Source: a virus
Length of the DNA: 46,248 bases
Virus record (IMG/VR): IMGVR_UViG_3300004807_000040
Span: 1 to 46,248 of that record
Strand: one strand, 5' to 3'
The translations under genes were made by a program, and so were the position numbers. Of the stretch, positions 12,047 to 33,603 are shown piece after piece. Position 1 is the first letter of the stretch. Each line of letters starts with the position of its first letter. The notes beneath the pieces were generated by a model. That model saw only the letters and a program-made list of their open reading frames with translations. It was not told where the DNA came from and made no database searches.

Positions 12047-12403
12047 ATGGCAAATACACCCACTACCCAAATTACAGATACCCAAGTTTTTTTTAATGGA
12101 TATTTTAATCAACCATTACAAGTAAGTGATGCTGTTTGGCAACAAATCTATGGTTATTTTTATAATTTAACAAATAGTGCAGATGCTGCTAATGCGTTAG
12201 CGCAAAGCGTAATTTCATTAACTTATAATAATAATTTGAATCCACTAGATTTAATAAAACAGTTTCAACAGAATCCAAATAGCAATAGTGTAAAGACACT
12301 ATTAATAAGTTTTTTTAATAGTATTAAGGGTTCTACTAGTAAATTAGGATACCAAAAACCATCTAGTGTTTCGCCAGTCGTTTCAAAAAATATTTTAGCA
12401 TGA
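12047..12403 (+). CDS. Small putative virion protein, 118 aa
   Basis: A Asn/Gln-rich N-terminus and a helical middle (WQQIYGYFYNLTNSADAANALAQSV) lead to a C-terminus STSKLGYQKPSSVSPVVSKNILA. A C-terminal pattern TSxLGY...RNIL is remembered from small virion proteins of marine T4-like phages. Its place between the tube-like protein and gp4 supports a structural role. It ends with a 4-nt overlap into the gp4 gene. Confidence 0.65.
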   Translation: MANTPTTQITDTQVFFNGYFNQPLQVSDAVWQQIYGYFYNLTNSADAANALAQSVISLTYNNNLNPLDLIKQFQQNPNSNSVKTLLISFFNSIKGSTSKLGYQKPSSVSPVVSKNILA

Positions 12404-12840
12404 AGTTTAGTCAAGGCATTTTTACGCCCAAACATCCAGAAAAATATATTGGTCGCGGTAGCATAAGATATCGAAGTGGTTGGGAATTGCAATTTATGAA
12501 TTTTCTTGATACACACCCTAGTATTAAGCAGTGGGCTAGTGAATCTATTAGTATTAAGTATGAAAATCCTATTGTCCAAAAAGTAAAAAGTTATGTACCT
12601 GATTTTTTTATAATTTATGAAGATGCAAGTGGAAATCGTAAAGGAGAATTGGTTGAGATTAAACCACATAAAGAAACTACATTAGAAGCCGCTGGTCGTA
12701 GTCAAAAAGCGCAAATTCAAGCCGTTGTCAATCAAGCCAAATGGAAAGCAGCAGCAGAATTTTGTAATAGAAATGGAATAAAATTTCGTGTAGTGACTGA
12801 ACATGAAATGTTTGCAAATACAAAGAACAAAAAAAGATAA
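12400..12840 (+). CDS. 4: Head completion protein / PD-(D/E)XK nuclease-like (gp4)
   Basis: The order YRSGWELQFMNFLDTHPSIKQWASESISIKY, YVPDFFIIYED and ELVEIKP matches T4 gp4 and TnsA-like nucleases; Asp in PDFF and Glu/Lys in VEIK form the PD-(D/E)XK core. In T4, gp4 (also called gp50) completes the DNA-filled head before tail joining. The length of 146 aa agrees with T4 (about 150). It overlaps the previous gene by 4 nt (ATGA). Confidence 0.88.
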   Translation: MKFSQGIFTPKHPEKYIGRGSIRYRSGWELQFMNFLDTHPSIKQWASESISIKYENPIVQKVKSYVPDFFIIYEDASGNRKGELVEIKPHKETTLEAAGRSQKAQIQAVVNQAKWKAAAEFCNRNGIKFRVVTEHEMFANTKNKKR

Positions 12841-12848: not shown

Positions 12849-13274
12849 ATGACACAAAAACTTGCAGAATTATTTGATTTGCCAACATCTAGTAAAGAAA
12901 TGGTTGAAGCACTTGATACGGCCAATCAATTAGAAGCTAGTTTGCCAGAGCAGCCAGAAGATGCTATGGATAAAGAGTTAGACGAATTAACTGAAAAAGC
13001 CGTAGAAAGTTTTGAAAATCTTCAAAGTTTGGGCATGAACGTTGAAGCTAGATTTTCTGCTCCAATATTTGAAGCAAGTGCAAAGATGTTAGCAACTGCT
13101 GTTACTGCAAAACTTGGTAAAGTTCAAAAGAAATTAAAACAAACAGAAATTGCACTAAAAGCAAAAAAATTGCAATATGATATCGATAAAGATAGCGGTA
13201 ACCAAGAAAGTGAAATAGTATCTGCACAAGTATTTGATAGAAATGAACTTCTTAAAACTATAAGAAAACAATAA
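12849..13274 (+). CDS. 16: Terminase small subunit-like protein (gp16)
   Basis: An acidic N-terminal third (LEASLPEQPEDAMDKELDEL) is followed by long helices: ESFENLQSLGMNVEARFSAPIFEASAKMLATAVTAKLGKVQKKLKQTE. The segment ARFSAPIFEASAKMLATAVTAK is the coiled-coil oligomerisation region of the gp16 family. The protein recognises concatemeric phage DNA and regulates the gp17 motor. At 141 aa it is a little shorter than T4 gp16 (164 aa). In T4 genes 16 and 17 are adjacent; here seven genes separate them. Confidence 0.75.
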   Translation: MTQKLAELFDLPTSSKEMVEALDTANQLEASLPEQPEDAMDKELDELTEKAVESFENLQSLGMNVEARFSAPIFEASAKMLATAVTAKLGKVQKKLKQTEIALKAKKLQYDIDKDSGNQESEIVSAQVFDRNELLKTIRKQ

Positions 13275-13277
13275 ATA
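13270..13277 (+). promoter_or_regulatory. T4-late-like box AATAAATA
   Basis: AATAAATA overlaps the stop of gene 16 and lies 17 nt upstream of the ATG at 13295, leaving a leader with AAAGGT. Confidence 0.6.
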
Positions 13278-13294
13278 TCATAAAGGTATTAACT

Positions 13295-13861
13295 ATGAAG
13301 TCCTATATTCAGTATTTGACAGATAATGAAAAGAAGTATGGGTTCCGAGCAAAGATTGCAACGGAAATCACAAAAGAATCTATGGAAAAACTCCAAAAAG
13401 TTTTGGCTCGTTGGAATCTTGAAGCAATTAGCGAACCAAAAAGTTTGCCAGTAAGTGAAGATCATACAGGTTTTGGTCATCTAAAGGCAACTGAACTTAA
13501 TATTATTGATATGGTTGTAAATTATCCTTGCACGCCAGCAGAAATGCAAGCAGCAATCCATGAAGCCACACAAATTCCGTTTAGCCACATTATGGTGATT
13601 ACACCAAATCAAGAAATTCTTGCTGCACCAATTGCACCAGAAGCATTAGGTAAGGCAATTCTTGAAAAAAGTTATCCAGAACAAAAAGCACCTCAATTAC
13701 TTGCAGACTTGGCTAATGCACTAAAAATTAAAACTATTGAACATCCATTTGCAGTAAAGCCAGAAGTTGGTAAAACTACAAATGATATTCCACAGTACAA
13801 TACAAGTCCTGTTGGAACAAACAAGAATAAACTCCCAGAACGTGGAAGAACAGGAAGATAA
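13295..13861 (+). CDS. Putative capsid internal or core protein, 188 aa
   Basis: The N-terminus MKSYIQYLTDNEKKYGF resembles the T4 capsid-targeting peptide (MKTYQEFIAEA in internal proteins). The following domain is alpha/beta (FRAKIATEITKESMEKLQKVLARWNLEAIS, TELNIIDMVVNYPCTPAEMQAAIHEATQIPFSHIMVI). The tail is basic and polar and ends LPERGRTGR. A protein of this shape is remembered from marine T4-like phages but its function is not known. It starts a run of genes with similar N-termini. Confidence 0.65.
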   Translation: MKSYIQYLTDNEKKYGFRAKIATEITKESMEKLQKVLARWNLEAISEPKSLPVSEDHTGFGHLKATELNIIDMVVNYPCTPAEMQAAIHEATQIPFSHIMVITPNQEILAAPIAPEALGKAILEKSYPEQKAPQLLADLANALKIKTIEHPFAVKPEVGKTTNDIPQYNTSPVGTNKNKLPERGRTGR

Positions 13862-13863
13862 CC

Positions 13864-14556
13864 ATGCAAATGATTGATGTATTAGCAAAACTAAAAGAAA
13901 TTGAAAGCCGCAGTCCAGAAGAACTTGGTCGTGCTATTAATACCCTTAACAAATTTAACAGCACAGAAGTTCCTGTTCACAAAGTTGCAGAAACAAAAGT
14001 AACTGAAATGCCACAAAGCAACAATAGCAATTATATGGTTGATGTTCTTTCTAAACTTAAAGAAATTAGTGACCGCAGTCCTGAAGTTGCGCATGCTATT
14101 AATAATGCAAGTCGTATGGGAACAAATGTAGCAGAAGGTATTGAAATTAAAACTAGTGGTGATGATGCTATCTTAGCACAAATTCTTAAACTTGCTGGTA
14201 TGGTCGGTGGTGTAAATTCACCTGATATGGCTGCTGCACATGGTGATGCGCCTATGGGTGGTGAAATTCCTCACGACCATGCTATGGTTCCAAGTGAGAC
14301 TGCAAAACCATCATTCCCAAGTGTTGGTGCTAATCTTCCAAATATTAGTGCTGGACCTGATATGGAAGTTACTATGGATGACGCACCTATGGGTGGTAAT
14401 CCTGATGAGCGTCGTTATAATAACAGTCCACATGAAGTATACAAAGGTCCAAAGGCAGCAGTTCCAAGTGGTAATGATCTTGCTAAACCAAAATTAACAG
14501 CACCAAAAGTTGCCGGTGGCGATAATCCAACACACGTAGCAGTAAGTTTTGACTAA
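13864..14556 (+). CDS. Putative virion protein with internal duplication, 230 aa
   Basis: Two copies of one helix are visible: MIDVLAKLKEIESRSPEELG (residue 3) and MVDVLSKLKEISDRSPEVAH (residue 58). Two copies of DAPMGG occur later, around residues 129 and 175, in a low-complexity Pro/Gly/Asp region. A LKLAGM segment near residue 107 matches the LAG motif found in three neighbouring proteins. The ATG follows the previous stop by 2 nt. A part in the prohead core or as a packaged protein is inferred from context only. Confidence 0.65.
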   Translation: MQMIDVLAKLKEIESRSPEELGRAINTLNKFNSTEVPVHKVAETKVTEMPQSNNSNYMVDVLSKLKEISDRSPEVAHAINNASRMGTNVAEGIEIKTSGDDAILAQILKLAGMVGGVNSPDMAAAHGDAPMGGEIPHDHAMVPSETAKPSFPSVGANLPNISAGPDMEVTMDDAPMGGNPDERRYNNSPHEVYKGPKAAVPSGNDLAKPKLTAPKVAGGDNPTHVAVSFD

Positions 14557-14565
14557 GGATTGATT

Positions 14566-15156
14566 ATGAATTTCCGTGATTATCTAGCAAGTGTAGAAAG
14601 AGCAAACAACGCACCAGTTAACGGCGATATTGTTAATATTGAAATTGATAGCATGAAGAGTGTTCAAGCAAGTGTTGTTGAACACACAGATACTAGTATT
14701 ACTATTGCATTAGATAATCCTGCATGGAATTTACTTGACCGCCACAATCTATTAAGTGAAGGTGCAACTCAGAAAATGGCTGAATTTGTACTAACTTTTG
14801 AAAAAGATGGTGAAAAAATTCAAAAGAAATTCTTACATCAACCACCTATGGAGGCTGCTGGCATTACTCAAGATTTCGTTCGTAATATAGCACCAGCAAA
14901 TAAAGTCAACGAAACTATGAAAGAACAAGGTTACAAGTTGCGTTATGCAAGTGCTAGTCTTGTTGAAACAGATCAACTTCCAGAAAGCGAAGTTACTGTA
15001 ATTGCTCGTAATCCGAGTGCAACAGAAGCACGTGTTACTTTTGAATGTGTTTTCAAGAAAGCAGATAGCAGCCGTAATCGTTTATTCCTTGAAGGAATTG
15101 ATTGCAGCATATCAAATGAATCTGCAAATTACTGGTCACTTCCTGTAAAGCGTTAA
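14566..15156 (+). CDS. Hypothetical virion-block protein, 196 aa
   Basis: It begins MNFRDYLASVERANNAPVNGD, again like a capsid-targeting peptide, followed by a beta-rich domain (DIVNIEIDSMKSVQASVVEHTD, SITIALDNPAWNLLD) and a C-terminal beta segment (EARVTFECVFKKADSSRNRLFLEGIDCSISNES). AAGGA lies before the ATG at 14566; a TTG two codons upstream is less likely. No family recognised. It lies between the duplicated-helix protein and the MRAxEF family. Confidence 0.65.
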   Translation: MNFRDYLASVERANNAPVNGDIVNIEIDSMKSVQASVVEHTDTSITIALDNPAWNLLDRHNLLSEGATQKMAEFVLTFEKDGEKIQKKFLHQPPMEAAGITQDFVRNIAPANKVNETMKEQGYKLRYASASLVETDQLPESEVTVIARNPSATEARVTFECVFKKADSSRNRLFLEGIDCSISNESANYWSLPVKR

Positions 15157-15162
15157 TTTTCT

Positions 15163-15170
15163 CATAAATA
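15163..15170 (+). promoter_or_regulatory. T4-late-like promoter CATAAATA, 5 nt from ATG
   Basis: CATAAATA, then ATCTT, then the ATG at 15176. No Shine-Dalgarno. It starts the MRAxEF gene family. Confidence 0.7.
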
Positions 15171-15175
15171 ATCTT

Positions 15176-15529
15176 ATGAGAGCATCAGAGTTTGTAGCAG
15201 AAGCAAAATCTAAAATTAATCCTGAACACGCATCTACTATGCCTATGAGTGTAGTTTATCCTGATATGGATATGGGTTATGATTATTATCGTTTTATGAC
15301 TCGTGTCGCTGGTCATCCGCATCACAATGCAGATCATGACCATGAACACTTTAGAGATAATCCTGTTGCTGCTGCATATACACAGCAAGAAATGGATATG
15401 TTAAAAGGTGCTATTCGTGGAACAGGATTTAAATCCAAAGTTATTTCGGATAAAAAAGGCATGGAGCCACAGTCTACAAATAAGTTAAGCCCCGTTCCAC
15501 ATAATAGCGGTAAAAGGAAAAAGAAATGA
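15176..15529 (+). CDS. MRAxEF family small protein, copy 1 (117 aa)
   Basis: Shared order with the proteins at 15526 and 16082: N-terminal MRASEFVAEA, a central block VVYPDMDMGYDYYRFMTRVAGHPH, a helix (YTQQEMDMLKGAIRGTGF), and a basic tail NKLSPVPHNSGKRKKK. The N-terminus resembles the T4 capsid-targeting sequence, and a V-A-E triplet stands where the prohead protease would cut. A His/Asp run (HPHHNADHDHEHF) could bind metal. Role as an internal protein packaged with DNA is inferred. The stop overlaps the next start by 4 nt. Confidence 0.7.
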   Translation: MRASEFVAEAKSKINPEHASTMPMSVVYPDMDMGYDYYRFMTRVAGHPHHNADHDHEHFRDNPVAAAYTQQEMDMLKGAIRGTGFKSKVISDKKGMEPQSTNKLSPVPHNSGKRKKK

Positions 15530-15894
15530 GAGCACATGAGTTTGTAAGCGAAGCAGCAGATTATAGTGGAAGCAAGGGGATGTCACAGCAGGCTCTTACA
15601 ACTATTCCTAATGCATTCTTATATCCAGAACTAGATAATAGCAGTGGTTATAAAGCATATCGTTTTGGAGTTGCTCTTGCTGGTATGCCTGATCATGAAA
15701 TGGCTAAAGAAGGTCCAACTGGTTTAAAGATGGTAACTATTAGTTATACATCAGCAGAAGAAGAAATACTTCAAAAGACAGCACAATACTTTGGTACACC
15801 TCGTGTTCGTTTAACACCAGATGGCAGTGATGAACCAAGTTATGTAAATCAAAAGAGTCCAGTAAATGCCAATAGCGGAAAGCGTAAAAAATGA
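15526..15894 (+). CDS. MRAxEF family small protein, copy 2 (122 aa)
   Basis: Paralog of the flanking copies: MRAHEFVSEA, then FLYPELDNSSGYKAYRFGVALAGMPDH, then TISYTSAEEEILQKTAQYFGT, and tail NQKSPVNANSGKRKK. The conserved core pattern is a hydrophobic strand, P-x-(L/M)-D, a Tyr-rich turn, YRFG...AGxP, then a helix and a lysine tail. It overlaps genes on both sides by 4 nt, so translation is coupled through the family. Confidence 0.7.
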   Translation: MRAHEFVSEAADYSGSKGMSQQALTTIPNAFLYPELDNSSGYKAYRFGVALAGMPDHEMAKEGPTGLKMVTISYTSAEEEILQKTAQYFGTPRVRLTPDGSDEPSYVNQKSPVNANSGKRKK

Positions 15895-16085
15895 AAATAA
15901 GCGAATTACAAAAACTTGCTGGCATTAAAAAACATACCTTTACTGAAAATGAAGGCAGCAATATAAGTTTGACTGCTATGGAAAAACGCAATTTAGAAAA
16001 AAAGCATAATATTCAACCTGGCACACAAGAATGGTTTCAACTTTGGTTTAGTAAGCCTTATCTAACAGGAGAAAAACCAATATGA
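15891..16085 (+). CDS. Small LAG-motif protein, 64 aa
   Basis: It opens MKISELQKLAGIKKHTFTENEG, a LAG-containing amphipathic helix also present in the proteins at 18624 and 21599. The rest has KRNLEKKHNIQPGTQEWFQLWFSKPYLTGEKP. It is coupled by 4-nt overlaps to the MRAxEF genes on both sides, so it is probably made with them. Function unknown. Confidence 0.65.
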   Translation: MKISELQKLAGIKKHTFTENEGSNISLTAMEKRNLEKKHNIQPGTQEWFQLWFSKPYLTGEKPI

Positions 16086-16474
16086 GAGCGCGTGAATTTA
16101 TTTTTGAAGAAACAGAAGCAGAACACGAACAAGGTCGTGCAGGTGAACATCCTGATTATGAACAACGCGGCATGGCTGGTGCTTTCATTATTCCTTCTGC
16201 TAGTATGAATTACTATCAAATGTATCGTTATGGAATTATGATGGCTCGTGCTCCTGACCCACAACCAGATGCTTTTGATGATCAAACATCATTAGGTGAT
16301 AAGATGATTGTAATGCCTTATGATGAAGGCAGTATGGAAACTATGTTGGCTGCAAGTAAAGCAACAGGTAAACCAGCAAAAAGCATAAGCAAATACAATC
16401 ATCACGATGAAAATCCAGAAGTTAATCGTGTAAGTCCTATTGCTAAATTCAAGCCTACTCGTCGCCCTAGTTAA
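16082..16474 (+). CDS. MRAxEF family small protein, copy 3 (130 aa)
   Basis: MRAREFIFEETEAEHEQG includes I-F-E, a match to the (L/I)-x-E site of T4-type prohead protease. The centre, AFIIPSASMNYYQMYRYGIMMARAPDPQ, aligns with the YRFG block of copies 1 and 2, followed by VMPYDEGSMETMLAASKATGK and the tail VNRVSPIAKFKPTRRPS. It is the most divergent of the three. Its 3' end overlaps the convergent HNH gene by 8 bp. Confidence 0.7.
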   Translation: MRAREFIFEETEAEHEQGRAGEHPDYEQRGMAGAFIIPSASMNYYQMYRYGIMMARAPDPQPDAFDDQTSLGDKMIVMPYDEGSMETMLAASKATGKPAKSISKYNHHDENPEVNRVSPIAKFKPTRRPS

Positions 16475-16976
16475 TATAATCACGCCAACTAGGATGCTTT
16501 AAGTCATAGGTATATTGCTTGCGACGAGCAGTAAGTGTCCAATAATCAGGCTTAAATGGCTCACGTAATGGTTTACGTAGTCGATTACCTTTGCGACTGT
16601 TACATGGAATACAACTAGTCACACAATTTTCCCAATTGGTTTTACCACCCTTGCTTAACGGAATAACATGGTCGATGTTTAATTCATGATAATCAAATGT
16701 TTCAGCACAGTATTGGCACTGAAACAAATCACGAACATATAAGTTTTGTCGGCTAAAACGAATGCCTTTTTGAAAACTATGGTAATCTTTTGTTATAGCC
16801 AACGCAGGCACTTTCATAGTCACGCTTGGACTATGAACTTCCCAATCATCATAATATTCCAAAATCTTGATACGGTCCATAAAATGCAACTTTACGCTTT
16901 GTTGCCATGGAATAACGCTTAGCGGTAGCCAAGAAAGTGGTTGATAGTTAGCGTTTAGAATCAGTGTGTCTGACAT
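16467..16976 (-). CDS. HNH endonuclease, 169 aa
   Basis: The HNH core is clear: CQYCAETFDYHELNIDHVIPLSKGG, then NWENCVTSCIPCNSRKGNR, with two CxxC pairs for structural zinc and the catalytic His in IDHVIP. The first 80 residues (LILNANYQPLSWLPLSVIPWQQSVKL) are the standard N-terminal part of this HNH subfamily. It is on the opposite strand to the whole virion block and just upstream of the large terminase gene. It could be a homing enzyme or a host-derived recombination/packaging helper; the sequence does not decide. Confidence 0.9.
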   Translation of the reverse strand: MSDTLILNANYQPLSWLPLSVIPWQQSVKLHFMDRIKILEYYDDWEVHSPSVTMKVPALAITKDYHSFQKGIRFSRQNLYVRDLFQCQYCAETFDYHELNIDHVIPLSKGGKTNWENCVTSCIPCNSRKGNRLRKPLREPFKPDYWTLTARRKQYTYDLKHPSWRDYIN

Positions 16977-17050: not shown

Positions 17051-18607
17051 ATGCCAAAACCAATAGAAAATAATCTCATCAAAAAGCCACATAAACGTAT
17101 ACAAATGACACAACAAGAACTGATCGAGTTTAGTTTGTGTGCTGATCCAATTACTGGACCAGAATATTTCTTACGTAATTTCTTTTATATTCAACATCCA
17201 ACTCGTGGCAGATTGAAATTTACGCCTTTTGATTATCAAGAGGAATTGTTACAAAATTACCACACAAATAGATTTAGTATTAACATGCTAGGTCGCCAAA
17301 TGGGTAAATCCACACTAGCGGCGGGCTATTTATTGTGGTATGCTATGTTTATAAGCGATAGCACTATTCTTGTAGCAAGTAACAAATATACTGGTGCGCA
17401 AGATATTATGCAACGCATTCGATATGCTTACGAAAACTGTCCAGATCATATTCGTGCTGGAGTTGTAGATTACAACAAAGGAAGTCTTGGTTTTGATAAT
17501 GGTAGCCGTATTGTAAGCGCAACAACTACTGAAACCACAGGTCGTGGTATGAGTATCTCACTATTATACTGTGACGAGTTGGCGTTTGTGCGTCCAACTA
17601 TTGCAAAAGAATTTTGGACTTCAATTAGTCCAACATTATCAACTGGTGGTAAGGCAATCATTACTTCTACACCAAATAGTGATGAAGACCAATTTGCTGA
17701 TATTTGGAAAGAAGCAAATAAGAAATTTGACTCACACGGTAATGAAACTAAATTAGGTCGTAATGGATTTAGTGCTTTCCTTGCTACTTGGGACCGTCAT
17801 CCAGAACGCAACAAAGATTGGGCAGAACGTGAAATGGCAAGTGTTGGCATAGATCGTTTCCGCCGTGAGCATAATTGTGAATTTGTTATCTACGATGAAA
17901 CACTTATTGCGCCAGGTGTGCTTGTAGATTTAACTGGTATTGATCCAATTGAAAAGCAAGGTCAAGTTCGTTGGTATGAAAAACCACAACGTGACCATAT
18001 CTATATTGTAGCACTTGACCCAAGTTTAGGAACTGGTGGTGATCCTGCTGCTATTGAAGTTTTTGATGCAACTACTATGCGCCAAGTAGCAGAGTGGCAA
18101 CACAATTTGACTATTATACAAAAACAAGTTGCTATTATGGCAGAGATTTGCAAGTATATTAAAGATGTTACAAATGATCCTGGTAATATCTATTATAGTG
18201 TTGAAAATAACGCAATAGGCGAAGCAGCACTTCATGCAGTAGCAGATATTGGCGAAGAAAATATACCAGGCAGTTTTCTAAGCGAACCTGGTGGTGGACG
18301 TAGATTTCGTAAAGGTTTCAATACTACACCAAAGAGCAAAATTGCAGCATGTAGTAAGTTCAAACTATGGATGGAAACAGGAAAAATTAAACTTTGTAGC
18401 AAAAGTTTAATTAGCGAATTAAAAACTTTTGTTGCACATGGTGTAAGTTATCAAGGAAAAGTTGGTGAAACTGACGATCTTGTTATGGCAACTCTACTTG
18501 CTGTGCGAATGATATTACATCTGCGAATGTATGATAGCAGAATTAGCGATGGATTAACTATGGATGCTGCTGACATAATCCCACCTATGCCATTTGTTAT
18601 GCTGTAA
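17051..18607 (+). CDS. 17: Terminase large subunit (packaging ATPase/nuclease)
   Basis: Walker A GRQMGKST lies at residues 81-88, with an adenine-contact segment FDYQEELL before it. Walker B is LLYCDELAF near residue 173, and the coupling motif is TSTPN. The C-terminal RNase H-like nuclease has its acids in VALDPSLGTGGDPAA, YYSVENNAIGEAAL and TDDLVMATLLA. It pumps DNA into the prohead and cuts concatemers. At 518 aa it is shorter than T4 gp17 (610 aa), as in many marine relatives. Confidence 0.95.
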   Translation: MPKPIENNLIKKPHKRIQMTQQELIEFSLCADPITGPEYFLRNFFYIQHPTRGRLKFTPFDYQEELLQNYHTNRFSINMLGRQMGKSTLAAGYLLWYAMFISDSTILVASNKYTGAQDIMQRIRYAYENCPDHIRAGVVDYNKGSLGFDNGSRIVSATTTETTGRGMSISLLYCDELAFVRPTIAKEFWTSISPTLSTGGKAIITSTPNSDEDQFADIWKEANKKFDSHGNETKLGRNGFSAFLATWDRHPERNKDWAEREMASVGIDRFRREHNCEFVIYDETLIAPGVLVDLTGIDPIEKQGQVRWYEKPQRDHIYIVALDPSLGTGGDPAAIEVFDATTMRQVAEWQHNLTIIQKQVAIMAEICKYIKDVTNDPGNIYYSVENNAIGEAALHAVADIGEENIPGSFLSEPGGGRRFRKGFNTTPKSKIAACSKFKLWMETGKIKLCSKSLISELKTFVAHGVSYQGKVGETDDLVMATLLAVRMILHLRMYDSRISDGLTMDAADIIPPMPFVML

Positions 18608-18610
18608 GTG

Positions 18611-18618
18611 GATAAATA
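18611..18618 (+). promoter_or_regulatory. T4-late-like promoter GATAAATA, 5 nt from ATG
   Basis: GATAAATA, ATTCT, then ATG at 18624. It fixes the start of the 992-aa protein, which has no Shine-Dalgarno. Confidence 0.68.
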
Positions 18619-18623
18619 ATTCT

Positions 18624-21602
18624 ATGGCCGACCTTAATAATGCAGCAATAGACCTTTTTTATAAATTGCGTAATCGCTTTCCAAAAATCACCATGGGTGA
18701 TGAGATGAGCGTTGCTACAATTGATCCTGAAGCCGCAAGATTTTTTAATTTTATCTATCATGATAAAGAAAGTGGACGTGATTATGGTCGTATTACATGC
18801 AGTCTTGTAGATAGAAATGGATTAAAAGTTTTTTTTGATAATGCAATCGCAGAACGTATGTTACCAGAAGATAAAAATTATTGGTATCGATTCTTAAAGG
18901 AATTACGACGTTATGCAAAATCACATATGTTAAACTTTGATGTTCGTGATATTAACAAAGATACGCTTAGCCGTAAAGACTATGAATTTCTAACAAAAAC
19001 AAACCCAGAGAAGAAAAAAATGAAAGAATCATTAGAAGAAAGCCGTGTAATGTGGCATCGTAAAGGCAAGGTTAGCGAAGGCAACCTTAACAATGTTCGT
19101 ATTCATGTAGTTCATAATGAACGCATGTTAGAAAACCCAAACAATCGTTTGTTAAAAGTTGATCGTATCTTCCTTGTAAATGAAAGTGGTGAAAAGTTCT
19201 TACTACCATTTAAGAGTGTAAGTGGTGCTAAAGCGATGGCAAATCACGTATCACGTGGAGGTAATCCTTATGATTCTAATGGTCAAATTATTAGTCGTGC
19301 AGTTAATGAAATGCGTAATCTGGGACGCTTTGCTAGTGCAACTCGCACACGAACATTTGAAGCAGCAGAGGCTAATAACGTTATACGTGCAGCACAAACT
19401 GTAAAAGAAAATCTTAAAAGACATCTAAATCGTTTAAGCAATAATAGCCGTAGTTTTAATGAAAGTTTAGAAGCACTTGCTGAATTTTTAGGCGAACAAG
19501 TAGATGATGTTACAGAAGTTAAAGCATGGTTTACACAACAAACATATAATGAAAATTTAGACAATTACCTAGCAAGTGCGGCTGGTGCTTATAAAAGACT
19601 TCGTGAAAATACTATGAATAAACTTGATGAAGTTAGCGATAGCGTTAAAAATAAGATTTTAGACCCTAAATTTAAGTTACTACTAAAAGCAGATGCTGGT
19701 CTTGACAAATTGATGACAAGCCGCAGTTATACAGATAGTAAGGCTATGGCTGTTGCTATTTTAGGTGATATCGCTAACCGCCTCATAGCACCAGACAGCG
19801 ATGATGTAGCAAACTTTGCAGCACTTATGGGTGACTTAATGAGCAGCGAAGGTGAAGCATTTGGTCAAAAGAAAGGCGATGCTGAATACGATAGTGATAA
19901 GAAACTTGCTATTCTTCTTGCACAAAAATATCTAAAAGAGTTAAATCTTATTAAGCAAAAACCAGAATTAGAAAGCCAATATCGTAAAGATATTAATCGC
20001 AAGCCAGAAAAGATTAAAGGAAAGAAGACTGAAAGTGAAATCTTTGCAGAAGAAATCATGGGTATTGGCGAAGATAATATGGGTGCTAGTGTAGAAGATA
20101 TTACTGACGCAATTAGCCACCGTCTTATGAATAGTGGTGCAGCAAACAAGATGCTACGTGCGCATGGTCTTGACAAGGTTCTAGATGCTATTCATAATGT
20201 GGCACAAGATCATGTTGGTGCAGAGGAACTTGGCACTAGTGATATTAGCATTATGGTTAAACAAGTAATGCAATCACTTGGTATGCGTGAAGATGCTGTA
20301 AAAGAAAGCGGATTACAATACTATACTGGTAAAAAGAAGTATGGTAAAGATGGTATGGCTGCACTTGCAAAAGCAGGTCGTGAAGGCGCAAGCCAAGAAG
20401 AACTTGGTAAAATCAAAGACAAATATATTAAAAAAGAAGATGCAGTTAACGAAAGTCCAATGACTACACCAGTTGAAATCAATGGTAAGCAAGTTGATGT
20501 TCATTCATTAGAAGTTGTTATTCCAGATACAACAGATTATCCAGATTTCAGTGATGCGCATTTTGCTTCGGGCCAATATACAGATGGCACACCAATTGAT
20601 GACCAAGACCTTGATGATTTGGCTAGAACACATGGTGATTTACTTCATGTAATGGCACATGACCAGTTTAATAGCATGGATTATAATGAAAGTGTTGATG
20701 AAGCAGGTATTAATCTTGGTGGAAAAATTGGTGCTGGTGCACTTGCATTAGGTTTAGGTGCTACTGCTGCTGGTATGATGCCAGATGACAAGGCAGTTCC
20801 TTATATGGTAAAACCTGGTTCACATGGTGGGTATGAAGTTGTGTTAAAGCGCAATCCATCACATGAACTTGTAAATTTTGATGACAAAGAACAAGCATAT
20901 GCTTGGATTAAACAAAAGATGCAACCTAAGACAAAAATTGATCCATTTGAAGATGCTGTAACAGAAGAACCAAATGAAGGCAACGAGTTTAGTGGTGCGC
21001 TTGCCGCAGCAAAGGCTAGTGGTAAGAAAGAATTTGAAGTAGATGGTAAAACTTATCCAGTAAAAGAAACTACTGCAAAAAAAGAAAAAAAGGAAACCCC
21101 AATGAAAAACAAAAATATTGAAGAAATGCGTAAGTTGGCAGGTTTGCCTCTAATGGAAAACTATGTCTATGCACAAGAAGACGACATGGAAGACATGCAA
21201 AAGCAATCAGATGCAGGTGAGCCAAGTGCTGACGACAAGGCAGAATATGATCAAGAAGGTCGTATGGGCAAGAATCGTTTAGCAACAATCAAGGACGCAG
21301 CAACTGAACTTGAAAAAATGTTGCAAGATGATGAAAATCTTCCTGAATGGGTTCAAGACAAGATTACTATGGCTGCTGATTATATTGACACCGTTCGTGA
21401 TTATATGAAGAGCAACGATGTAGAATATACAGATGAAGCACATGTTGAAGAAGCAAAGAAAGAAAAGCCAGATTACCTTGACTTTGACAAGGATGGCGAC
21501 AAAGAAGAATCTATGAAGAAAGCACTTGCTGACAAAAAGAAGATGAAAGAAAGTGCTGATTTGACTTGGCTTCAAGCAGTTGCAGGAATTAAAAGCAAAT
21601 GA
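18624..21602 (+). CDS. Large composite putative virion protein, 992 aa
   Basis: Several distinct segments follow each other: an alpha/beta N-terminus (about 1-130), long charged helices (about 240-560), repeated spaced short motifs such as EDAVxE(S/E) and MKESxxL, a small hydrophobic patch (GKIGAGALALGLGATAAGM near 730), EFSGALAAAKASGKKEFEVDGKTYPV near 790, MRKLAGLPLMEN near 835, PEWVQDKITMAADYIDTVRDYM near 905, and an EF-hand-like DFDKDGDKEE near 955. Many of the modules are remembered from head or core proteins of marine T4-like phages. Candidate (L/I)-x-E protease sites are numerous. A core, scaffold or packaged role is inferred. The ATG at 18624 fits the late box. Confidence 0.7.
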   Translation: MADLNNAAIDLFYKLRNRFPKITMGDEMSVATIDPEAARFFNFIYHDKESGRDYGRITCSLVDRNGLKVFFDNAIAERMLPEDKNYWYRFLKELRRYAKSHMLNFDVRDINKDTLSRKDYEFLTKTNPEKKKMKESLEESRVMWHRKGKVSEGNLNNVRIHVVHNERMLENPNNRLLKVDRIFLVNESGEKFLLPFKSVSGAKAMANHVSRGGNPYDSNGQIISRAVNEMRNLGRFASATRTRTFEAAEANNVIRAAQTVKENLKRHLNRLSNNSRSFNESLEALAEFLGEQVDDVTEVKAWFTQQTYNENLDNYLASAAGAYKRLRENTMNKLDEVSDSVKNKILDPKFKLLLKADAGLDKLMTSRSYTDSKAMAVAILGDIANRLIAPDSDDVANFAALMGDLMSSEGEAFGQKKGDAEYDSDKKLAILLAQKYLKELNLIKQKPELESQYRKDINRKPEKIKGKKTESEIFAEEIMGIGEDNMGASVEDITDAISHRLMNSGAANKMLRAHGLDKVLDAIHNVAQDHVGAEELGTSDISIMVKQVMQSLGMREDAVKESGLQYYTGKKKYGKDGMAALAKAGREGASQEELGKIKDKYIKKEDAVNESPMTTPVEINGKQVDVHSLEVVIPDTTDYPDFSDAHFASGQYTDGTPIDDQDLDDLARTHGDLLHVMAHDQFNSMDYNESVDEAGINLGGKIGAGALALGLGATAAGMMPDDKAVPYMVKPGSHGGYEVVLKRNPSHELVNFDDKEQAYAWIKQKMQPKTKIDPFEDAVTEEPNEGNEFSGALAAAKASGKKEFEVDGKTYPVKETTAKKEKKETPMKNKNIEEMRKLAGLPLMENYVYAQEDDMEDMQKQSDAGEPSADDKAEYDQEGRMGKNRLATIKDAATELEKMLQDDENLPEWVQDKITMAADYIDTVRDYMKSNDVEYTDEAHVEEAKKEKPDYLDFDKDGDKEESMKKALADKKKMKESADLTWLQAVAGIKSK

Positions 21603-21838
21603 GTAATTTAGAAGATATTAAAAGACTTGCTGGATTATTTGAAACTGAAGTTGTAAGTGAAGCAGCAGTGCGAACTATTGATGATGCTATAAATGCACTT
21701 GCAAATTTACGTCAAAGTGCAAAACAAATGCAAATAAATCATATTAATACTAATGGGCTTGCAAATGATGTTATTGAAGATTTATATGCCGTGATTTTGT
21801 TTTTAGAACAACATAAGGCAACTATGCATAATGGCTGA
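21599..21838 (+). CDS. Small LAG-motif protein, 79 aa
   Basis: It starts MSNLEDIKRLAGLFETEVVSEA: the LAG helix is followed by L-F-E, a possible prohead protease site, as in the 992-aa protein (LAGLPLMEN). The remainder is one helical domain (TIDDAINALANLRQSAKQM...VIEDLYAVILFLEQHKA). It overlaps the large protein by 4 nt and so is probably made with it. Confidence 0.65.
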   Translation: MSNLEDIKRLAGLFETEVVSEAAVRTIDDAINALANLRQSAKQMQINHINTNGLANDVIEDLYAVILFLEQHKATMHNG

Positions 21839-22052: not shown

Positions 22053-22506
22053 AAATCCAACCTAAATTCTCAAGTTTATGAATCCAAGTAAAAATTGGTG
22101 TGCTAAATTGTAAATTCCACTTACCATTAAAACCAAGATAATCAATATTTTTAATTATAGAATCTAAAGTTTTACCAGATTTTATTTGCTGAGAAGCCCA
22201 TGGTTCTGGATAAATTGGTTCATATTCACCAGCCCATATAAATCTAGGTAAACTAATATCTTCAAATTCAATATTTTCAATAATTACTGCTTGATCACAT
22301 AAATTTGTTGTATTAGCATTAGTTTTATTTTTTAATACTATCCATAAATTATGTGTATCATTTATAAGCAAATCGTTTCTTTTAATATCTAATTTTTCTA
22401 TTAGTAATCCTTCATATAAAATATCACGATTTAATCCTACTTGAATGTGGGGATATTCACCACAATATAATCCTTTAAGAGTTAACTTAAACTTAAGTTT
22501 ATGCAT
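22045..22506 (-). CDS. Beta-rich hypothetical protein linked to the radical SAM gene, 153 aa
   Basis: Alternating strands (HKLKFKLTLKGLYCGEYPHIQVGLN, NLWIVLKNKTN, AVIIENIEFEDISLPRFIWAGEY) followed by NGKWNLQFSTPIFTWIHKLENLGWIF. The pattern suggests a beta-sandwich of the carbohydrate-binding type; similar proteins with a WxxxFTxPxFTWIHxLENLGWIF ending are remembered from marine phages, function unknown. The ATG at 22506 overlaps the stop of the radical SAM gene (22499), so both are made together. The region is clearly more AT-rich than the virion genes. Confidence 0.65.
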   Translation of the reverse strand: MHKLKFKLTLKGLYCGEYPHIQVGLNRDILYEGLLIEKLDIKRNDLLINDTHNLWIVLKNKTNANTTNLCDQAVIIENIEFEDISLPRFIWAGEYEPIYPEPWASQQIKSGKTLDSIIKNIDYLGFNGKWNLQFSTPIFTWIHKLENLGWIFN

Positions 22507-23818
22507 ATCCAATAGACCTTAACCAAGAAGCATATTCTGGATAAATTTCTAGGGCTTTAAGATTGTATATATTATCCCAAAACATTAAATGATTACATAG
22601 TTTATTTTCTAATTCATTCACGTTTTCTGGTGTTTTCTCGTTGCACATGTTAATTATAGTATCACATTCTCTAATAAGTTTCTGATTAATAGTCCCTAGT
22701 GACCTACCATTTTGTATAGTCTTAAATTGAATGTTTTTTGATAAAGTATTTTTTAAATCTTGTAATTCGCTAATAAATTTTATTCTAATTTCTTGTGGCA
22801 AAACGTTCACTTGTAAAAAATCTGGCTCTATTAATGGTATAGATTCAATAATCAAGTTGTTTTGGGATGCAAATTGAATTAATTTAGAATAATTATTAAC
22901 ACTTAATAATTGTGGAACAGTTCTTAACACAATATTAATTTTATTATCTAAACCATTAAAATCTTTAATTGTTTTAACTAAACTTTCTGTGTCACATCCT
23001 TGTCTTATATAATCATTATTCTTGTATAATGACTCGATACTAATTTCAATATCAACTCTTTCAAAGTATTTTAATTTTTCAAATAATGCTGTATCTATTT
23101 TAGAACCATTTGTAACAAAACTTAAACTAATTTCATGTCTTTTATTTGCAATCAAGTAATCAATTATTTTGTAAAAAGATTTTGATAACGTGGGTTCTCC
23201 ACCCATAAAGTGTATTCTTTTTACACTTATAGTATCAATTGCTTGCAAAAAATTATCATAGGCAGTTTTGTTTTTAGACCAATCTTTAGTAGTTGGACCA
23301 CTATATTTTTTATGAATTTTTAGATAACTTGCTATTTTACTGCTTGCTTTTTCATCACACATTTTACAAGCAAAGTTGCATTCGTTGCCTAAATCTATAT
23401 GCCAATCAATAGGCAAAAGACTTGTTTTTTCTTTATTTTTGCTTTCTTCAAAATGTTTATACCAAGGACTTTGTTTATAACTTTTGTGAAAGTTAAGTTC
23501 AGTAAAAATAACTGACTTAAAATTTTCTTTAATTCTACGACTTTCATGTCCTAAACTTTCTTGTTTATAACACTGTCTGCATGCAGAAACATGTTGTTCA
23601 CTATTAATTTTTTGTCTAAAATCTTCCATAGGCTTACTGTTAAACCATTCTGAAACTGTCATATTTGCTATATTATATTTTTGACTTTCAGAATCATCAT
23701 AGATTTTTTCTTGTTCACTACAACATGCACCAAAACTGCCATCCCAATATAAGTGAAGATTGGACCAAGGAACATTACAAAAAACTTTTTCATTTGGCAT
23801 CAAAATACTTATTGACAT
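22499..23818 (-). CDS. Radical SAM enzyme (twitch/SPASM-type), 439 aa
   Basis: The [4Fe-4S] motif CNFACKMC has Cys at residues 147, 151 and 154, and the SAM-contact motif FMGGEPT follows. An N-terminal Cys-rich part (C14, C32, C33, C80, C83; WDGSFGACC...SACRQCYKQE) resembles the auxiliary-cluster regions of SPASM/twitch enzymes, here ahead of the barrel. Such enzymes modify peptides or other substrates with radical chemistry; the phage substrate is unknown. The start could also be the Met at residue 7; no Shine-Dalgarno helps to decide. It points away from gene 32 and is AT-rich, suggesting later acquisition. Confidence 0.85.
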   Translation of the reverse strand: MSISILMPNEKVFCNVPWSNLHLYWDGSFGACCSEQEKIYDDSESQKYNIANMTVSEWFNSKPMEDFRQKINSEQHVSACRQCYKQESLGHESRRIKENFKSVIFTELNFHKSYKQSPWYKHFEESKNKEKTSLLPIDWHIDLGNECNFACKMCDEKASSKIASYLKIHKKYSGPTTKDWSKNKTAYDNFLQAIDTISVKRIHFMGGEPTLSKSFYKIIDYLIANKRHEISLSFVTNGSKIDTALFEKLKYFERVDIEISIESLYKNNDYIRQGCDTESLVKTIKDFNGLDNKINIVLRTVPQLLSVNNYSKLIQFASQNNLIIESIPLIEPDFLQVNVLPQEIRIKFISELQDLKNTLSKNIQFKTIQNGRSLGTINQKLIRECDTIINMCNEKTPENVNELENKLCNHLMFWDNIYNLKALEIYPEYASWLRSIGYA

Positions 23819-27604: not shown

Positions 27605-28627
27605 ATGAATAAAGCACTTATCACAGGTATTGCAGGTCAGGACGGAAGTTATCTTGCAGAACTGTTATTGGAAAAAGGTTATGAAGTTCATGGTCTTATT
27701 CGACGCCAAGCAAATTTTGACCATCCAAATATTGCAAATATTAAAGACAAAATTAGTTTTCATCATGGTGACTTAGGTGACGCAAATAGTATTCGTAATT
27801 TAATTGAAAAAATTAAACCTACTGAAATTTACAATCTTGCAGCACAAAGCCATGTAAAAGTAAGTTTTGAAATGCCTGAACTTACTGGTGATATTAATGC
27901 ACTAGGACCACTGCGTATTCTTGACAGCATTCGTTCATTAAAAATGACAAGTGATACTAAATTTTATCAAGCATCTACTAGTGAAATGTTTGGCATCCAA
28001 AAGTTTAATCCACAAAAAGAAGATACGCCATTTTATCCTGGTTCTCCTTACAGTGCTGCTAAACTCTATGCTTATTGGATTACTGTAAACTATCGTGAAA
28101 GTTACAAGATTTTTGGTTGTAATGGTCTGCTATTCAACCATGAGTCGCCTCGTCGTGGTGAATTGTTTGTAACACGTAAGATTACTAAAGCATTTGCTAA
28201 CATGGTATTAGGTAAGCAAAAAGTGTTGGAACTTGGTAATATGGATAGTCTACGTGATTGGGGTCATGCAAAAGATTATGTTCGTGCGATGTGGATGATG
28301 TTGCAGCATGATACACCAGATGATTATGTTGTTGCAACTGGCATACAAGCAAGTATTCGTGATTTCTGTAACTTAACTGCTGACCATTTTGGTATTAAAT
28401 TGTTATGGGAAGGCAGCGGTATTGATGAGGTTGCTCGTAATAGCGTTACTGGCGATGTAATGATTCGTGTAAATCCAGAATTTTATCGTCCAGTAGATGT
28501 TGTTAACATTCAAGGCGATGCTACCAAGGTTCGTGAAGTTCTTGGATGGAAGCCAGAATATAGTTTGCAAGACCTTGTTCACGATATGTGTGAAGTAGAT
28601 TACAAACTTGCAAAGGCTTATCTATGA
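27605..28627 (+). CDS. gmd: GDP-mannose 4,6-dehydratase
   Basis: An extended SDR with GIAGQDGSYLAE (NADP-binding, residues 8-19), STSEMFG (124-130) and the catalytic YSAAK (Tyr149, Lys153), followed by NHESPRRGELFVTRKI and RDWGHAKDYVRAMW, all diagnostic of Gmd. It makes GDP-4-keto-6-deoxymannose, the precursor of fucose, rhamnose and perosamine units. 340 aa is full length. AAAGGAATTATCG precedes the ATG. It is the first gene of a sugar cassette running to 32767; no fucose synthase or perosamine aminotransferase is present in the window, so later steps would use other enzymes. Confidence 0.95.
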   Translation: MNKALITGIAGQDGSYLAELLLEKGYEVHGLIRRQANFDHPNIANIKDKISFHHGDLGDANSIRNLIEKIKPTEIYNLAAQSHVKVSFEMPELTGDINALGPLRILDSIRSLKMTSDTKFYQASTSEMFGIQKFNPQKEDTPFYPGSPYSAAKLYAYWITVNYRESYKIFGCNGLLFNHESPRRGELFVTRKITKAFANMVLGKQKVLELGNMDSLRDWGHAKDYVRAMWMMLQHDTPDDYVVATGIQASIRDFCNLTADHFGIKLLWEGSGIDEVARNSVTGDVMIRVNPEFYRPVDVVNIQGDATKVREVLGWKPEYSLQDLVHDMCEVDYKLAKAYL

Positions 28628-29010
28628 CAAAAACAGTTCACGCTCCTATTAGCGTAGGTGAATTAGTTGATAAAATAACAATTCTACAAATCAAACAAGA
28701 TGAGTTTGAAGATGAGGTTAAGTTATCTCATGTTCGTAACGAATTAGGTGAGTTAAACAAACTTGCCACAGAATTAAATGTTAATGTTGTGCAAGAAATG
28801 GCAGAATTGCGTAAGGTAAATGAAGTAATTTGGCATAATGAAGATGCCGCAAGAAAGTTTCCTAGCGATAATTACACAGCACTACATGCGCTAGATATTG
28901 CAAAAATTGCTATGCAAACATATGCAGCAAATACTCGTCGTGCGCAAATTAAAAAAGCAATAAATGAAAAGTGTGGCAGCACAATAGTTGAAGAAAAAAG
29001 TTATACATAG
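28624..29010 (+). CDS. DUF6165-like protein, 128 aa
   Basis: The start ISVGELVDKITILQIKQDEFEDEVKLSHVRNELGEL matches, from memory, the DUF6165 pattern (SVGELIDKITIL, then a helical repeat). This small helical protein is often found beside glycosyltransferases. Its role is unknown. It overlaps gmd by 4 nt and is clearly in the same operon. Confidence 0.7.
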   Translation: MTKTVHAPISVGELVDKITILQIKQDEFEDEVKLSHVRNELGELNKLATELNVNVVQEMAELRKVNEVIWHNEDAARKFPSDNYTALHALDIAKIAMQTYAANTRRAQIKKAINEKCGSTIVEEKSYT

Positions 29011-29019
29011 GAAAATTTT

Positions 29020-30240
29020 ATGAAAAAGATATTAGAATTAGGCGATCATTATGTAAGTGATTTTATGAAACCAGGCGCAGAAATGCGTGAAACAAAACCA
29101 TGGTCACTTGACCTTTATCTTGATGAAACTATTGGTGCAGTTCGTCTCGACGGTGTTGCGCCGCTTGATAAGATGTATGGACAGTATTGGTATCGTAGTG
29201 GTATTAATACAAGCATGACAAAGCAATTAGGTGAAATTGTATCTGAAATTACTAGCCGTGTAAAAATTAATGACGATGATGTTTGGTTAGATATTGCTTG
29301 TAATGACGGAACATTGCTTCGTCAAGTTCCTAATAACATGATTAAGTTAGGTATTGATCCAGCCGATGATTCATACTTGGAAGAAAGCAGCAAAGTTGCA
29401 GAAGTTGTGCAAGATTTTTTTAGTAAAGATGCTTATGATAGTCTTGGATATAGCGATAAAAAAGCAAAGGTTATTACTTGTATCGCTATGTTTTATGACT
29501 TGAATGATCCACGACCATTTATTCGTGATGCTCACGAAATACTTGCAGATGATGGTGTATTTGTGCTACAAATGAGTTATACGCCACTTATGCTAAAGCA
29601 GTTGGCTTTTGACAATATTTGTCATGAACATGTATATTACTATGATCTACGTAGTATTAAGAAGTTATTTGAAAGTGAAGGTTTTGTGTTGCGTGATTGT
29701 TCACTTAATGATACTAATGGTGGTTCATTCCGTGTTACATTCCAAAAGGCTGATAGCGATGAAAAGACTTTTGCTACGCAGCAAGTTCGTGACGTATGTG
29801 AATTCCGCATTAACTCAACTCTTTCTTATGAAGCACAGGAATGGGATATTACCAGCGAAAAACTTTGGAAAGAATTTGGTGATAATATATGGGAATTAAA
29901 GATTCAAGTTCTTGCATTTTTACATAAAGCCAAAGAAGAAGGCAAAAAGGTTTATGGATATGGTGCCTCCACTAAAGGTAATACACTACTACAATTATTT
30001 GAAATTACACCAGATTTGGTAACTGCAATTGCCGAACGTTCACCATATAAGTTTGGTTTATTAACTGTTGGTTCAAATATTCCTATTGTGAGTGAAGAAG
30101 AAATGCGAGCAGCAAATCCAGATTATCTACTTGTTCTGCCATGGCACTTTATTGATGAGTTTGTGAAGCGTGAAAGCGATTTTATCGCAAAAGGTGGTAA
30201 GTTAGTTGTTCCTTGCCCAACATTTCAAGTTATTGGATAA
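29020..30240 (+). CDS. SAM-dependent C-methyltransferase (sugar type), 406 aa
   Basis: The order fits the three-part C-methyltransferase family: N-terminal ILELGDHYVSDFM, SAM-binding DDVWLDIACNDGTLLRQVP (near residue 90), the catalytic-region sequence FDNICHEHVYYYDLRS, and a Rossmann-like C-terminal domain with KKVYGYGASTKGNTLLQ. Family members methylate a keto-sugar nucleotide, which matches the keto-sugar made by Gmd. The usual two N-terminal CxxC zinc motifs are missing. It shares the Gmd operon with a 9-nt gap. Confidence 0.88.
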   Translation: MKKILELGDHYVSDFMKPGAEMRETKPWSLDLYLDETIGAVRLDGVAPLDKMYGQYWYRSGINTSMTKQLGEIVSEITSRVKINDDDVWLDIACNDGTLLRQVPNNMIKLGIDPADDSYLEESSKVAEVVQDFFSKDAYDSLGYSDKKAKVITCIAMFYDLNDPRPFIRDAHEILADDGVFVLQMSYTPLMLKQLAFDNICHEHVYYYDLRSIKKLFESEGFVLRDCSLNDTNGGSFRVTFQKADSDEKTFATQQVRDVCEFRINSTLSYEAQEWDITSEKLWKEFGDNIWELKIQVLAFLHKAKEEGKKVYGYGASTKGNTLLQLFEITPDLVTAIAERSPYKFGLLTVGSNIPIVSEEEMRAANPDYLLVLPWHFIDEFVKRESDFIAKGGKLVVPCPTFQVIG

Positions 30241-30243
30241 AAA

Positions 30244-31161
30244 ATGAAGAACGTAATATTTTTCAACCACTGGCATTATGGCGACCTATTCTCTACACGA
30301 GGATGGGTCGCTGATATTAAACGTCAACTCCCAGATTCTGTTTTTTATTATGCACATAAAAAAGATAATCGTGCTACGATGGATTTAGCAGAAAAGTTAG
30401 ATGATGAAAACAACGATGCAGTACTAAATGGTATTAGCCAGTGGAATCGTTTTGGTAGCGATAGCGATACTATACTAATTAACACTTGGGTTGGAAGTTA
30501 TATGGGATTATGGGCAAATACTCATCCATCTTATATTAGCCATCATCGTATTATCGGTGAATGCTACAATAACATTCGTCAGCAATTCGGTGTTGAATTA
30601 CAATTAAGTGATGATGTGTGGGATTATGTGCCACAAATTGATTATAGTTACTATCATACCCCACTTAAGGAAATTCAAAAAGAATTAGTAGGAAATGTGT
30701 ATTTGTTCTGCAACAGCGCAGTAGCAAGTAAGCAAAGCAGCATGGATAATATGCAAAAAATTATCGAGTATGTTGCTGACAATCATAAAAACGATACAAT
30801 TGTTGCTACAGAAAAGTTTGAAACTAAAAGTAAAAATATTATCTTTACTGATGATATGTTTGTAACTGCTTGTGATCTTTGTGAAATTTCACTACTTTCA
30901 ACCAAAGTAAAACTTATTGTTGGTAAGAACAGCGGACCATTCACTTATGCCAATACTAAAGAAAACTTACTTGATAAAAGTAAAGTATTTGTAAACTTTA
31001 GTCATAAACCAGAAGATACGCTGCCATATGGTTTAGATATTGGCGCAGATTTCCGTTTTAGTAGCACCACTTTTGCAAGTCCTGCTGTTCGCACTATTGA
31101 ACGTGCAATAGATGATATTAAAAACAATAAACAAACAAGTGGATACCACTTAGAAAAGTAA
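30244..31161 (+). CDS. Putative glycosyltransferase-like protein, 305 aa
   Basis: N-terminal FFNHWHYGDLFSTRGWVADIKRQLPD resembles the first strand-loop-helix of GT-B glycosyltransferases of the heptosyltransferase type, and VKLIVGKNSGPFTYANTKENL resembles their donor-site loop (G-N/K-x-S/T-G-P). These are weak matches seen by eye. It follows the methyltransferase by 3 nt. Confidence 0.55.
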   Translation: MKNVIFFNHWHYGDLFSTRGWVADIKRQLPDSVFYYAHKKDNRATMDLAEKLDDENNDAVLNGISQWNRFGSDSDTILINTWVGSYMGLWANTHPSYISHHRIIGECYNNIRQQFGVELQLSDDVWDYVPQIDYSYYHTPLKEIQKELVGNVYLFCNSAVASKQSSMDNMQKIIEYVADNHKNDTIVATEKFETKSKNIIFTDDMFVTACDLCEISLLSTKVKLIVGKNSGPFTYANTKENLLDKSKVFVNFSHKPEDTLPYGLDIGADFRFSSTTFASPAVRTIERAIDDIKNNKQTSGYHLEK

Positions 31162-31162
31162 T

Positions 31163-32140: not shown

Positions 32141-32152
32141 TGGAGAAACAAG

Positions 32153-32767
32153 TTGAATTACGATAAACCTATTTTTAATGCGCCAATTATTAACAAAGAT
32201 AGATCACAAGCATTTCAAGATGAGTTTGCACTTAGAGCAAACGGTGGTAACAAAACTTATATTGAAGTAGGTGGCGCACATCCAGACCAAAATAGCAATA
32301 CATATCAATTAGAAGTTGTACATGGTTGGCGTGGATTTAGTATTGAATTTAACCTACCTACTTATAAGCATTTGTGGGACAATTGCACCGAAAGAAAAAA
32401 TAAAATCTATTGGCAAGATGCGCTACTTACAGATTATGCATCTGCTATTGGTGAAAATGGGTTGCCAAACACTATTGGATACTTAAGCATGGATATTGAT
32501 CCAGCACCACAAACATTTGCTGCGCTACAACGCATTATTGAAAGTGGAATCAAATTTAATTGCATTACTTTTGAACACGATTTGTATTGTTCAAATACAG
32601 ATTTTAACATTCTTGGAACTGAATATCTTACAAGTCGTGGTTACAAAGTTGCAGTAACTGATGTTTATGATAGACAACCTGAAATTCATATTGAAACATG
32701 GTTTGTTGCTGATCATATTGACTTTCCACGTATGACCTTTGATGAGTTCAAAGCATCAATATCTTAA
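32153..32767 (+). CDS. FkbM-type methyltransferase-like protein, 204 aa
   Basis: Typical FkbM features: SQAFQDEFALRANGGNKTYIEVGGAHPDQNSNTYQLEVVHGWRGFSIEFN, then GYLSMDIDP and FNCITFEHD. FkbM-like enzymes O-methylate sugars or lipids. Start is TTG at 32153, supported by TGGAGAAACAAG just before it; no ATG fits. The 3' end overlaps the convergent epimerase by 12 bp. Confidence 0.75.
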   Translation: MNYDKPIFNAPIINKDRSQAFQDEFALRANGGNKTYIEVGGAHPDQNSNTYQLEVVHGWRGFSIEFNLPTYKHLWDNCTERKNKIYWQDALLTDYASAIGENGLPNTIGYLSMDIDPAPQTFAALQRIIESGIKFNCITFEHDLYCSNTDFNILGTEYLTSRGYKVAVTDVYDRQPEIHIETWFVADHIDFPRMTFDEFKASIS

Positions 32768-33553: not shown

Positions 33554-33603
33554 TATCAATCCTTATTAATTATATATACTATAACACGGATAAAATCAAT
33601 AAA

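Follow-up and report, generated by a model that had tools for sequence, protein, structure and literature searches.

A nine-residue N-terminal peptide as a candidate capsid-targeting signal on tandem small proteins of uncultured jumbo T4-like phages

Introduction

To our knowledge, there are very few cultured giant phages for which the cargo injected at the onset of infection is known. The closest described system is that of the internal proteins of phage T4, in which residues 1-10 of IPIII are enough for packaging, and mutational work assigned residues 4 and 7 to targeting and residues 8 and 10 to processing (PMC9026906). The T4 head also packages Alt, an ADP-ribosyltransferase (PMC5512222). 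Among jumbo phages, gp53 and gp54 of SPN3US are diverged paralogs with identical N-termini (PMC5694885).

In this study, a 46,248-base IMG/VR virus record (hereafter the window) was analyzed; it is a genome fragment without a head module and contains neither gp21 nor gp23. It carries three tandem genes for small proteins, A, B, and C, which begin with the tag MRAxEF(I/V)xE and are referred to as the MRA family. The tag resembles the start of T4 IPI, IPII, and IPIII in being a short N-terminal peptide of 9-10 residues with a hydrophobic-x-Glu end (MKTYQEFIAE/A versus MRAxEF(I/V)xE/, the slash marking the cleavage position, which is predicted for MRA). As in T4, the peptide is common to otherwise different proteins, the bodies are small, and the lineage has gp21. 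However, the tag is one residue shorter and has Arg2-Ala3 in place of Lys-Thr-Tyr, the MRA bodies are non-homologous to the T4 proteins, and the MRA genes are conserved throughout the lineage in synteny beside gp17.

Other related systems were also compared. A tagged protein with an ADP-ribosyltransferase fold in a related contig (L181) and its orthologs recall Alt, but this protein is nearest to the DarT and Tpt1 folds, has zero sequence match to Alt, and is absent from the window. The inner-body and ejection proteins of phiKZ and SPN3US are likewise protease-processed, head-packaged proteins of jumbo phages. In most cases their propeptides are far longer, with an A/S-x-E end, whereas the MRA tag has nine residues and ends in I/V-x-E. 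The polyvalent proteins (Iyer et al. 2017, PMC5512222) overlap with the tagged cargo in their predicted injected domain classes (kinases, ADP-ribosyltransferases, and GNAT), but they fuse these domains in one polypeptide, whereas the tagged cargo consists of separate proteins with a common short tag.

Results

Three paralogs in one gene run

As the earlier note had described, A, B, and C lie in one run with an interleaved LAG-motif gene between B and C, and at each of the three junctions the neighboring genes overlap by 4 nt (ATGA; Table 1). Their paralogy was confirmed over the full length, beyond the N-terminus, by blastp against B (3e-18 for A and 3e-8 for C) and by 20 invariant columns, and MRA-x-EF-(V/I)-x-E is exact in all three proteins. 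A profile of 26 sequences matched exactly A, B, and C in the window (3e-50 to 3e-47), and the profile search found relatives in 26 of 26 related contigs.

The described core motifs were retained in part. The YPxxD core is present in A and B (YPDMD and YPELD) and is replaced by IPSAS in C, and the loosely described YRFG core reads YRFM, YRFG, and YRYG in A, B, and C, respectively. The third copy is degenerate because of its core variants IPSAS and YRYG. A basic tail was confirmed for all three proteins, but the predicted mature form of C is acidic overall (pI 5.5, compared to 9.5 for A and 8.2 for B). The predicted mature bodies are approximately 12-14 kDa, and across the family the median pI is 8.1, with 21% of the members below 6. 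The AlphaFold2 model of B reached a pLDDT of 88 except for residues 1-20, in which the tag appears as a low-confidence helix.

Table 1. Positions of the MRA genes, their predicted tags, and neighboring features in the window
Feature	Position	Strand	Basis
MRA-family paralog A, 117 aa (MRASEFVAE/AKSK...GKRKKK)	15176..15529	+	ORF; full-length homolog of B, 3e-18; profile match 3.4e-47
MRA-family paralog B, 122 aa (MRAHEFVSE/AADY...GKRKK)	15526..15894	+	ORF; 18 close relatives; AF2 pLDDT 88
MRA-family paralog C, 130 aa (MRAREFIFE/ETEA...TRRPS)	16082..16474	+	ORF; homolog of B, 3e-8; profile match 9e-48
CTS-like nonapeptide of A, MRASEFVAE	15176..15202	+	Motif kept in family and re-used on unrelated proteins; cleavage predicted after E9
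CTS-like nonapeptide of B, MRAHEFVSE	15526..15552	+	Same basis as for A; cleavage predicted
CTS-like nonapeptide of C, MRAREFIFE	16082..16108	+	Same basis as for A; cleavage predicted
LAG-motif protein, 64 aa, starts MKISELQKLAGIKK	15891..16085	+	Motif as in gp22 scaffold C-terminus; beside MRA genes in 43 loci
Virion-protein homolog upstream, same gene run	13295..13861	+	PA5oct gp282 (MS-detected structural), 5e-11
Upstream gene with internal LAG motif ILAQILKLAGM	13864..14556	+	Motif
Terminase large subunit (gp17)	17051..18607	+	53% identity to PA5oct TerL
Large virion-protein homolog with a LAG motif, downstream of gp17	18594..21602	+	PA5oct gp278 (MS-detected), 4e-21; LAG at residue 842
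HNH endonuclease gene between MRA genes and gp17	16467..16976	-	Conserved in the window's clade
CATAAATA box just 5' of A, putative late promoter	15163..15170	+	Like T4 late-promoter consensus; same place in L004, L005, L012, L014, L026, L051

Neighboring genes and the LAG motif

The MRA genes had been placed between gp16 and gp17. The terminase gene gp17 does follow, past an opposite-strand HNH gene that is possibly a homing endonuclease, whereas zero neighbors were identifiable as gp16. Among the genes at 12849-15156, zero matches to gp16/TerS were obtained in Pfam and PHROGs, and the gene at 12849 matched only phrog_16202, of unknown function.

In all relatives examined, the gp22 scaffold has the LAG motif at its C-terminus (IIEMKRLAGLK, VIDIKRLAGL). 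Since the interleaved gene has this gp22-ending motif, it again points to the head core, and the LAG motif is possibly a second head-recruitment motif. The pattern [IVM]xx[IM]x[KR]LAG[LIM], of the gp22 C-terminus type, occurs in four genes around gp17 (13864-14556, 15891-16085, 18594-21602, and 21599-21838).

Boxes of the CATAAATA/TATAAATA type at 9834, 15163-15170, and 23885 precede a gp19-like gene, the MRA operon, and an ssb-like gene. They are rarer in the window than chance predicts, and CATAAATA lies very close to the ATG, so that a promoter role would need a leaderless start. Elsewhere in the window, a TnsA-like endonuclease-fold gene at 12400-12840 (PF08722, 5e-21) matches a PA5oct 'head closure' protein with 47% identity, a radical-SAM-like protein (CNFACKMC) is encoded at 22499-23818 on the minus strand, and a block of sugar-nucleotide, methyltransferase, and glycosyltransferase-like genes occupies 27605-34332.

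Distribution and conservation of the MRA family

The profile search detected the MRA family in at least 187 IMG/VR stretches, and B has its 18 close relatives there. The contigs that bear it reach 338 kb in one set and 525 kb in another. MRA copies occur in tandem sets of 1-4, commonly one to three per contig and four in L031. Most MRA genes adjoin gp17, with tail-tube or other conserved genes on their other side; a different context was seen in a few contigs (L018, and the group of L039, L048, L054, and L062, in which they lie beside DnaB-like genes). The 524,565-base contig G059 (IMGVR_UViG_3300027749_002876) contains two tandem MRA copies together with gp21, gp22, and gp23.

No cultured carrier of the family was found in the collections searched, with zero tblastn matches to B among 50,697 phage records, and the bacterial genome contigs searched contained zero MRA relatives. 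The bodies of A, B, and C matched zero known families in Pfam, PHROGs, and PDB sequences, and body homology to the T4 IPI, IPII, and IPIII families was found neither in Pfam and PHROG nor by tblastn against the same phage records. The B model matched zero solved structures among PDB folds, and its sole significant match in BFVD was a homolog from an uncultured phage. Judging from these searches, the MRA family appears to be large and previously undescribed.

The median identity of orthologs was 79% for B, 76% for C, and 64% for A, compared to 70-82% for neighboring virion proteins. By these medians, the conservation of B and C is close to that of the adjoining virion proteins, and only A evolves faster. 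Of 166 family members, 163 retain the h-h-x-E end, among them most of the 22 off-pattern ones, although conservation of the tag within the family is partly inflated because the N-terminal pattern itself served in part to collect the members.

Re-use of the tag on unrelated proteins

In the window itself, the tag occurs on A, B, and C only. In six related genomes read whole or nearly so, 17 non-family proteins start with MRxx[EDQ]hhx[ED], compared to about 0.3 expected from column-wise shuffles (the null for G052 was set by analogy with the other five). These comprise five proteins in G019, four in G020, six in G021, two in G052, and none in G022 and G025. When the first 12 residues were removed, the 17 proteins were mutually unrelated, except for three G021 proteins with a common domain. 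The same pattern stands at 28 of 1735 ORF starts versus 31 occurrences in 472,238 residues elsewhere, and the strict form RA.EF[IVL].E at 18 ORF starts versus 0 elsewhere. Furthermore, a DNA-pattern census of IMG/VR returned at least 51 family members and at least 43 other tagged proteins, a few of the latter being truncated or possibly divergent family members.

The recognized tagged bodies included GH19 hydrolases, kinases near a T7-type PHROG, a ParB-like protein, and DUF6321. At L181:2414-6637, at least five consecutive tagged genes encode unrelated bodies (GH19 hydrolase, kinase-like, and ADP-ribosyltransferase fold), and for the last of these, the best seven PDB matches were Tpt1 and DarT. 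The codons under the motif vary synonymously, with all four Ala and all three Ile codons in use and variation also at E5 and F6; selection therefore acts on the protein and not on the DNA.

A twin-arginine-like signal directly follows the tag (RRGFLGALGAGAMAAAG, RRGFLKGLASIAAS) in L181:2992-3612 and L118:1268-2164 (G019). Because of this position, cleavage at Glu would expose the signal.

Glutamate boundary, gp21, and gp23

Residues F6, I/V7, and E9 of the tag align with residues 7, 8, and 10 of the T4 IPIII capsid-targeting sequence. The N-terminal peptide differs among orthologs of the ADP-ribosyltransferase-like protein but always ends in Glu (MRATEFIAE/GATD, MRASEILTE/GATD, and MNLYDLFE/GATD). 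A family of mini-proteins also shows swapped peptides (MRANEFIKE, MKISEIME, and MRAKEFISE), all ending in Glu before [ST]ASAGATTSGN, as in MRANEFIKE/TASAGATTSGN and MKISEIME/TASAGATSSGN. The residues after this Glu match the predicted mature N-terminus of gp23 in the same phage group (YLAE/SASAGATAAGN, YLKE/NASAGSTASGN). These results favor the view that MRAxEF(I/V)xE is an N-terminal signal that can be carried by different proteins and would end at a gp21-type site.

A module of the form E-[STND]A[ST]xGA[TS]xxG[NG] is common to gp23, in which it follows the predicted cleavage site, and to other small and large phage proteins. Its carriers include L289-L304, L114:17081-17953, and PA5oct gp281 (127321-128817).

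The gp21-type protease that the earlier note invoked for processing is present in the relatives. gp21 (PF03420) is encoded in 10 of 10 motif-bearing contigs of at least 150 kb, and G019, the nearest large relative of the window with the same operon, encodes both gp21 and gp23; gp23 was found in 9 of the 24 contigs of the first set. In the window and the other small contigs, zero Pfam matches to gp21 and gp23 were obtained because these contigs are fragments.

Comparison with PA5oct virions

Pseudomonas phage PA5oct (Arenbergviridae) is the nearest cultured relative of the operon, its terminase is 53% identical to that of the window (Table 1), and its positional and cargo homologs were detected in virions by mass spectrometry. 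It differs in being without the MRA family; at the MRA position it has gp281, a 498-aa virion protein with LAG motifs and the stretch E/TASAGASSAGG.

The PA5oct annotation includes mass-spectrometry evidence, with 93 of about 443 genes detected. Only gp279 and gp135 matched tagged cargo bodies (not the MRA family), and both were detected in virions. Given 93 of about 443, two of two has a chance probability near 0.04. Strict-motif N-termini in PA5oct were not significantly associated with detection (2 of 93 versus 1 of 350, p=0.11). Looser N-terminal patterns gave p=0.0004-0.0007, but these patterns were chosen post hoc and carry little weight.

Discussion

We consider it likely that A, B, and C serve a large T4-like phage as internal head (cargo) proteins and that MRAxEF(I/V)xE is a capsid-targeting signal, cut after Glu9. 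The core of the earlier note, namely an N-terminus of the T4 capsid-targeting type, internal head proteins, and gp21-type processing, survived several falsifiable tests, including the re-use of the tag, the swap of Glu-ended peptides, the match to the gp23 site, the presence of gp21 in all ten large contigs, and the PA5oct cargo homologs in virions. The acidic C differs from the T4 internal proteins and counts against this reading, as do the non-significant strict-motif result in PA5oct, a phage without the MRA family, and the missing gp21 and gp23 in the fragmentary window.

By analogy with T4, residues 1-9 would dock the protein onto a gp22-type scaffold core during prohead assembly, and a gp21-type prohead protease would cut after Glu9, as at the (I/V/L)-x-E site of gp23. 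The freed bodies of approximately 12-14 kDa would remain beside the DNA inside the head and would probably accompany it into the host. Many other proteins of related phages, such as those with an ADP-ribosyltransferase fold, kinases, and GH19 hydrolases, may be loaded by this tag too, whereas the MRA family, which nearly all related phages have, would be the constant cargo.

The earlier note had also suggested that these proteins counter host defense, and this part was not supported. In such a role, proteins packaged via the tag would act in the way that T4 IPI counters the restriction enzyme GmrSD. There is a T4 precedent for it, and the tagged cargo of the relatives includes host-modifying classes (kinases and the ADP-ribosyltransferase fold). 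We nevertheless consider this role unlikely. The MRA family is conserved and syntenic throughout the lineage, with 1-4 copies kept at a fixed position by gp17 or structural genes, and the orthologs of B and C are conserved like their virion neighbors, with only A faster, whereas T4 IPI-type proteins vary strongly among related phages (PMC9026906). Because of this lineage-wide synteny and conservation, the bodies most likely have a general internal-protein role, which may be in core assembly, DNA packing, or early takeover, and not in host-specific counter-defense.

The location of the MRA genes between tail-tube and head-closure-like genes on one side and gp17 on the other would also suit structural connectors (neck, head-completion, or tail-tube-associated), whose N-terminus would be an uncleaved docking peptide for the portal or scaffold. 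This appears quite improbable, as the tag is also found on enzymes and unrelated proteins distant from the operon and the peptide swap between orthologs falls exactly at Glu. It is very improbable that the N-terminus is unrelated to capsids and was spread by recombination as a translation leader or a motif that binds some other factor of the phage or host. The Arg2 codon is AGA in 128 of 160 cases, which could reflect start-site effects, but the synonymous variation at A3, I7, E5, and F6, the Glu boundary with its gp23-like continuation, and the PA5oct homologs of tagged cargo in virions all stand against such a leader. A translation leader as such was rejected on the basis of the synonymous codon variation under the motif.

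Beyond the reading of A, B, and C as packaged internal head proteins, a wider proposal is, in our view, about evenly balanced. The nine-residue tag would serve uncultured jumbo T4-like phages as a packaging code throughout the lineage, loading dozens of separate effector families (kinases, ADP-ribosyltransferases, ParB-like proteins, and GH19 hydrolases) into the head, with the MRA family as the constant core cargo. Tag removal in L181 and G019 would expose the twin-arginine-like signal, and the host could then export an injected hydrolase through its Tat system.

If the tag is a capsid-targeting signal, a motif search across thousands of uncultured genomes would list proteins that are candidates for injection, among them the near-universal MRA family, and would provide ready constructs to load foreign proteins into jumbo heads. 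If true, the T4 rule of a conserved address with changing cargo would extend to a separate and much larger phage group with a different address.
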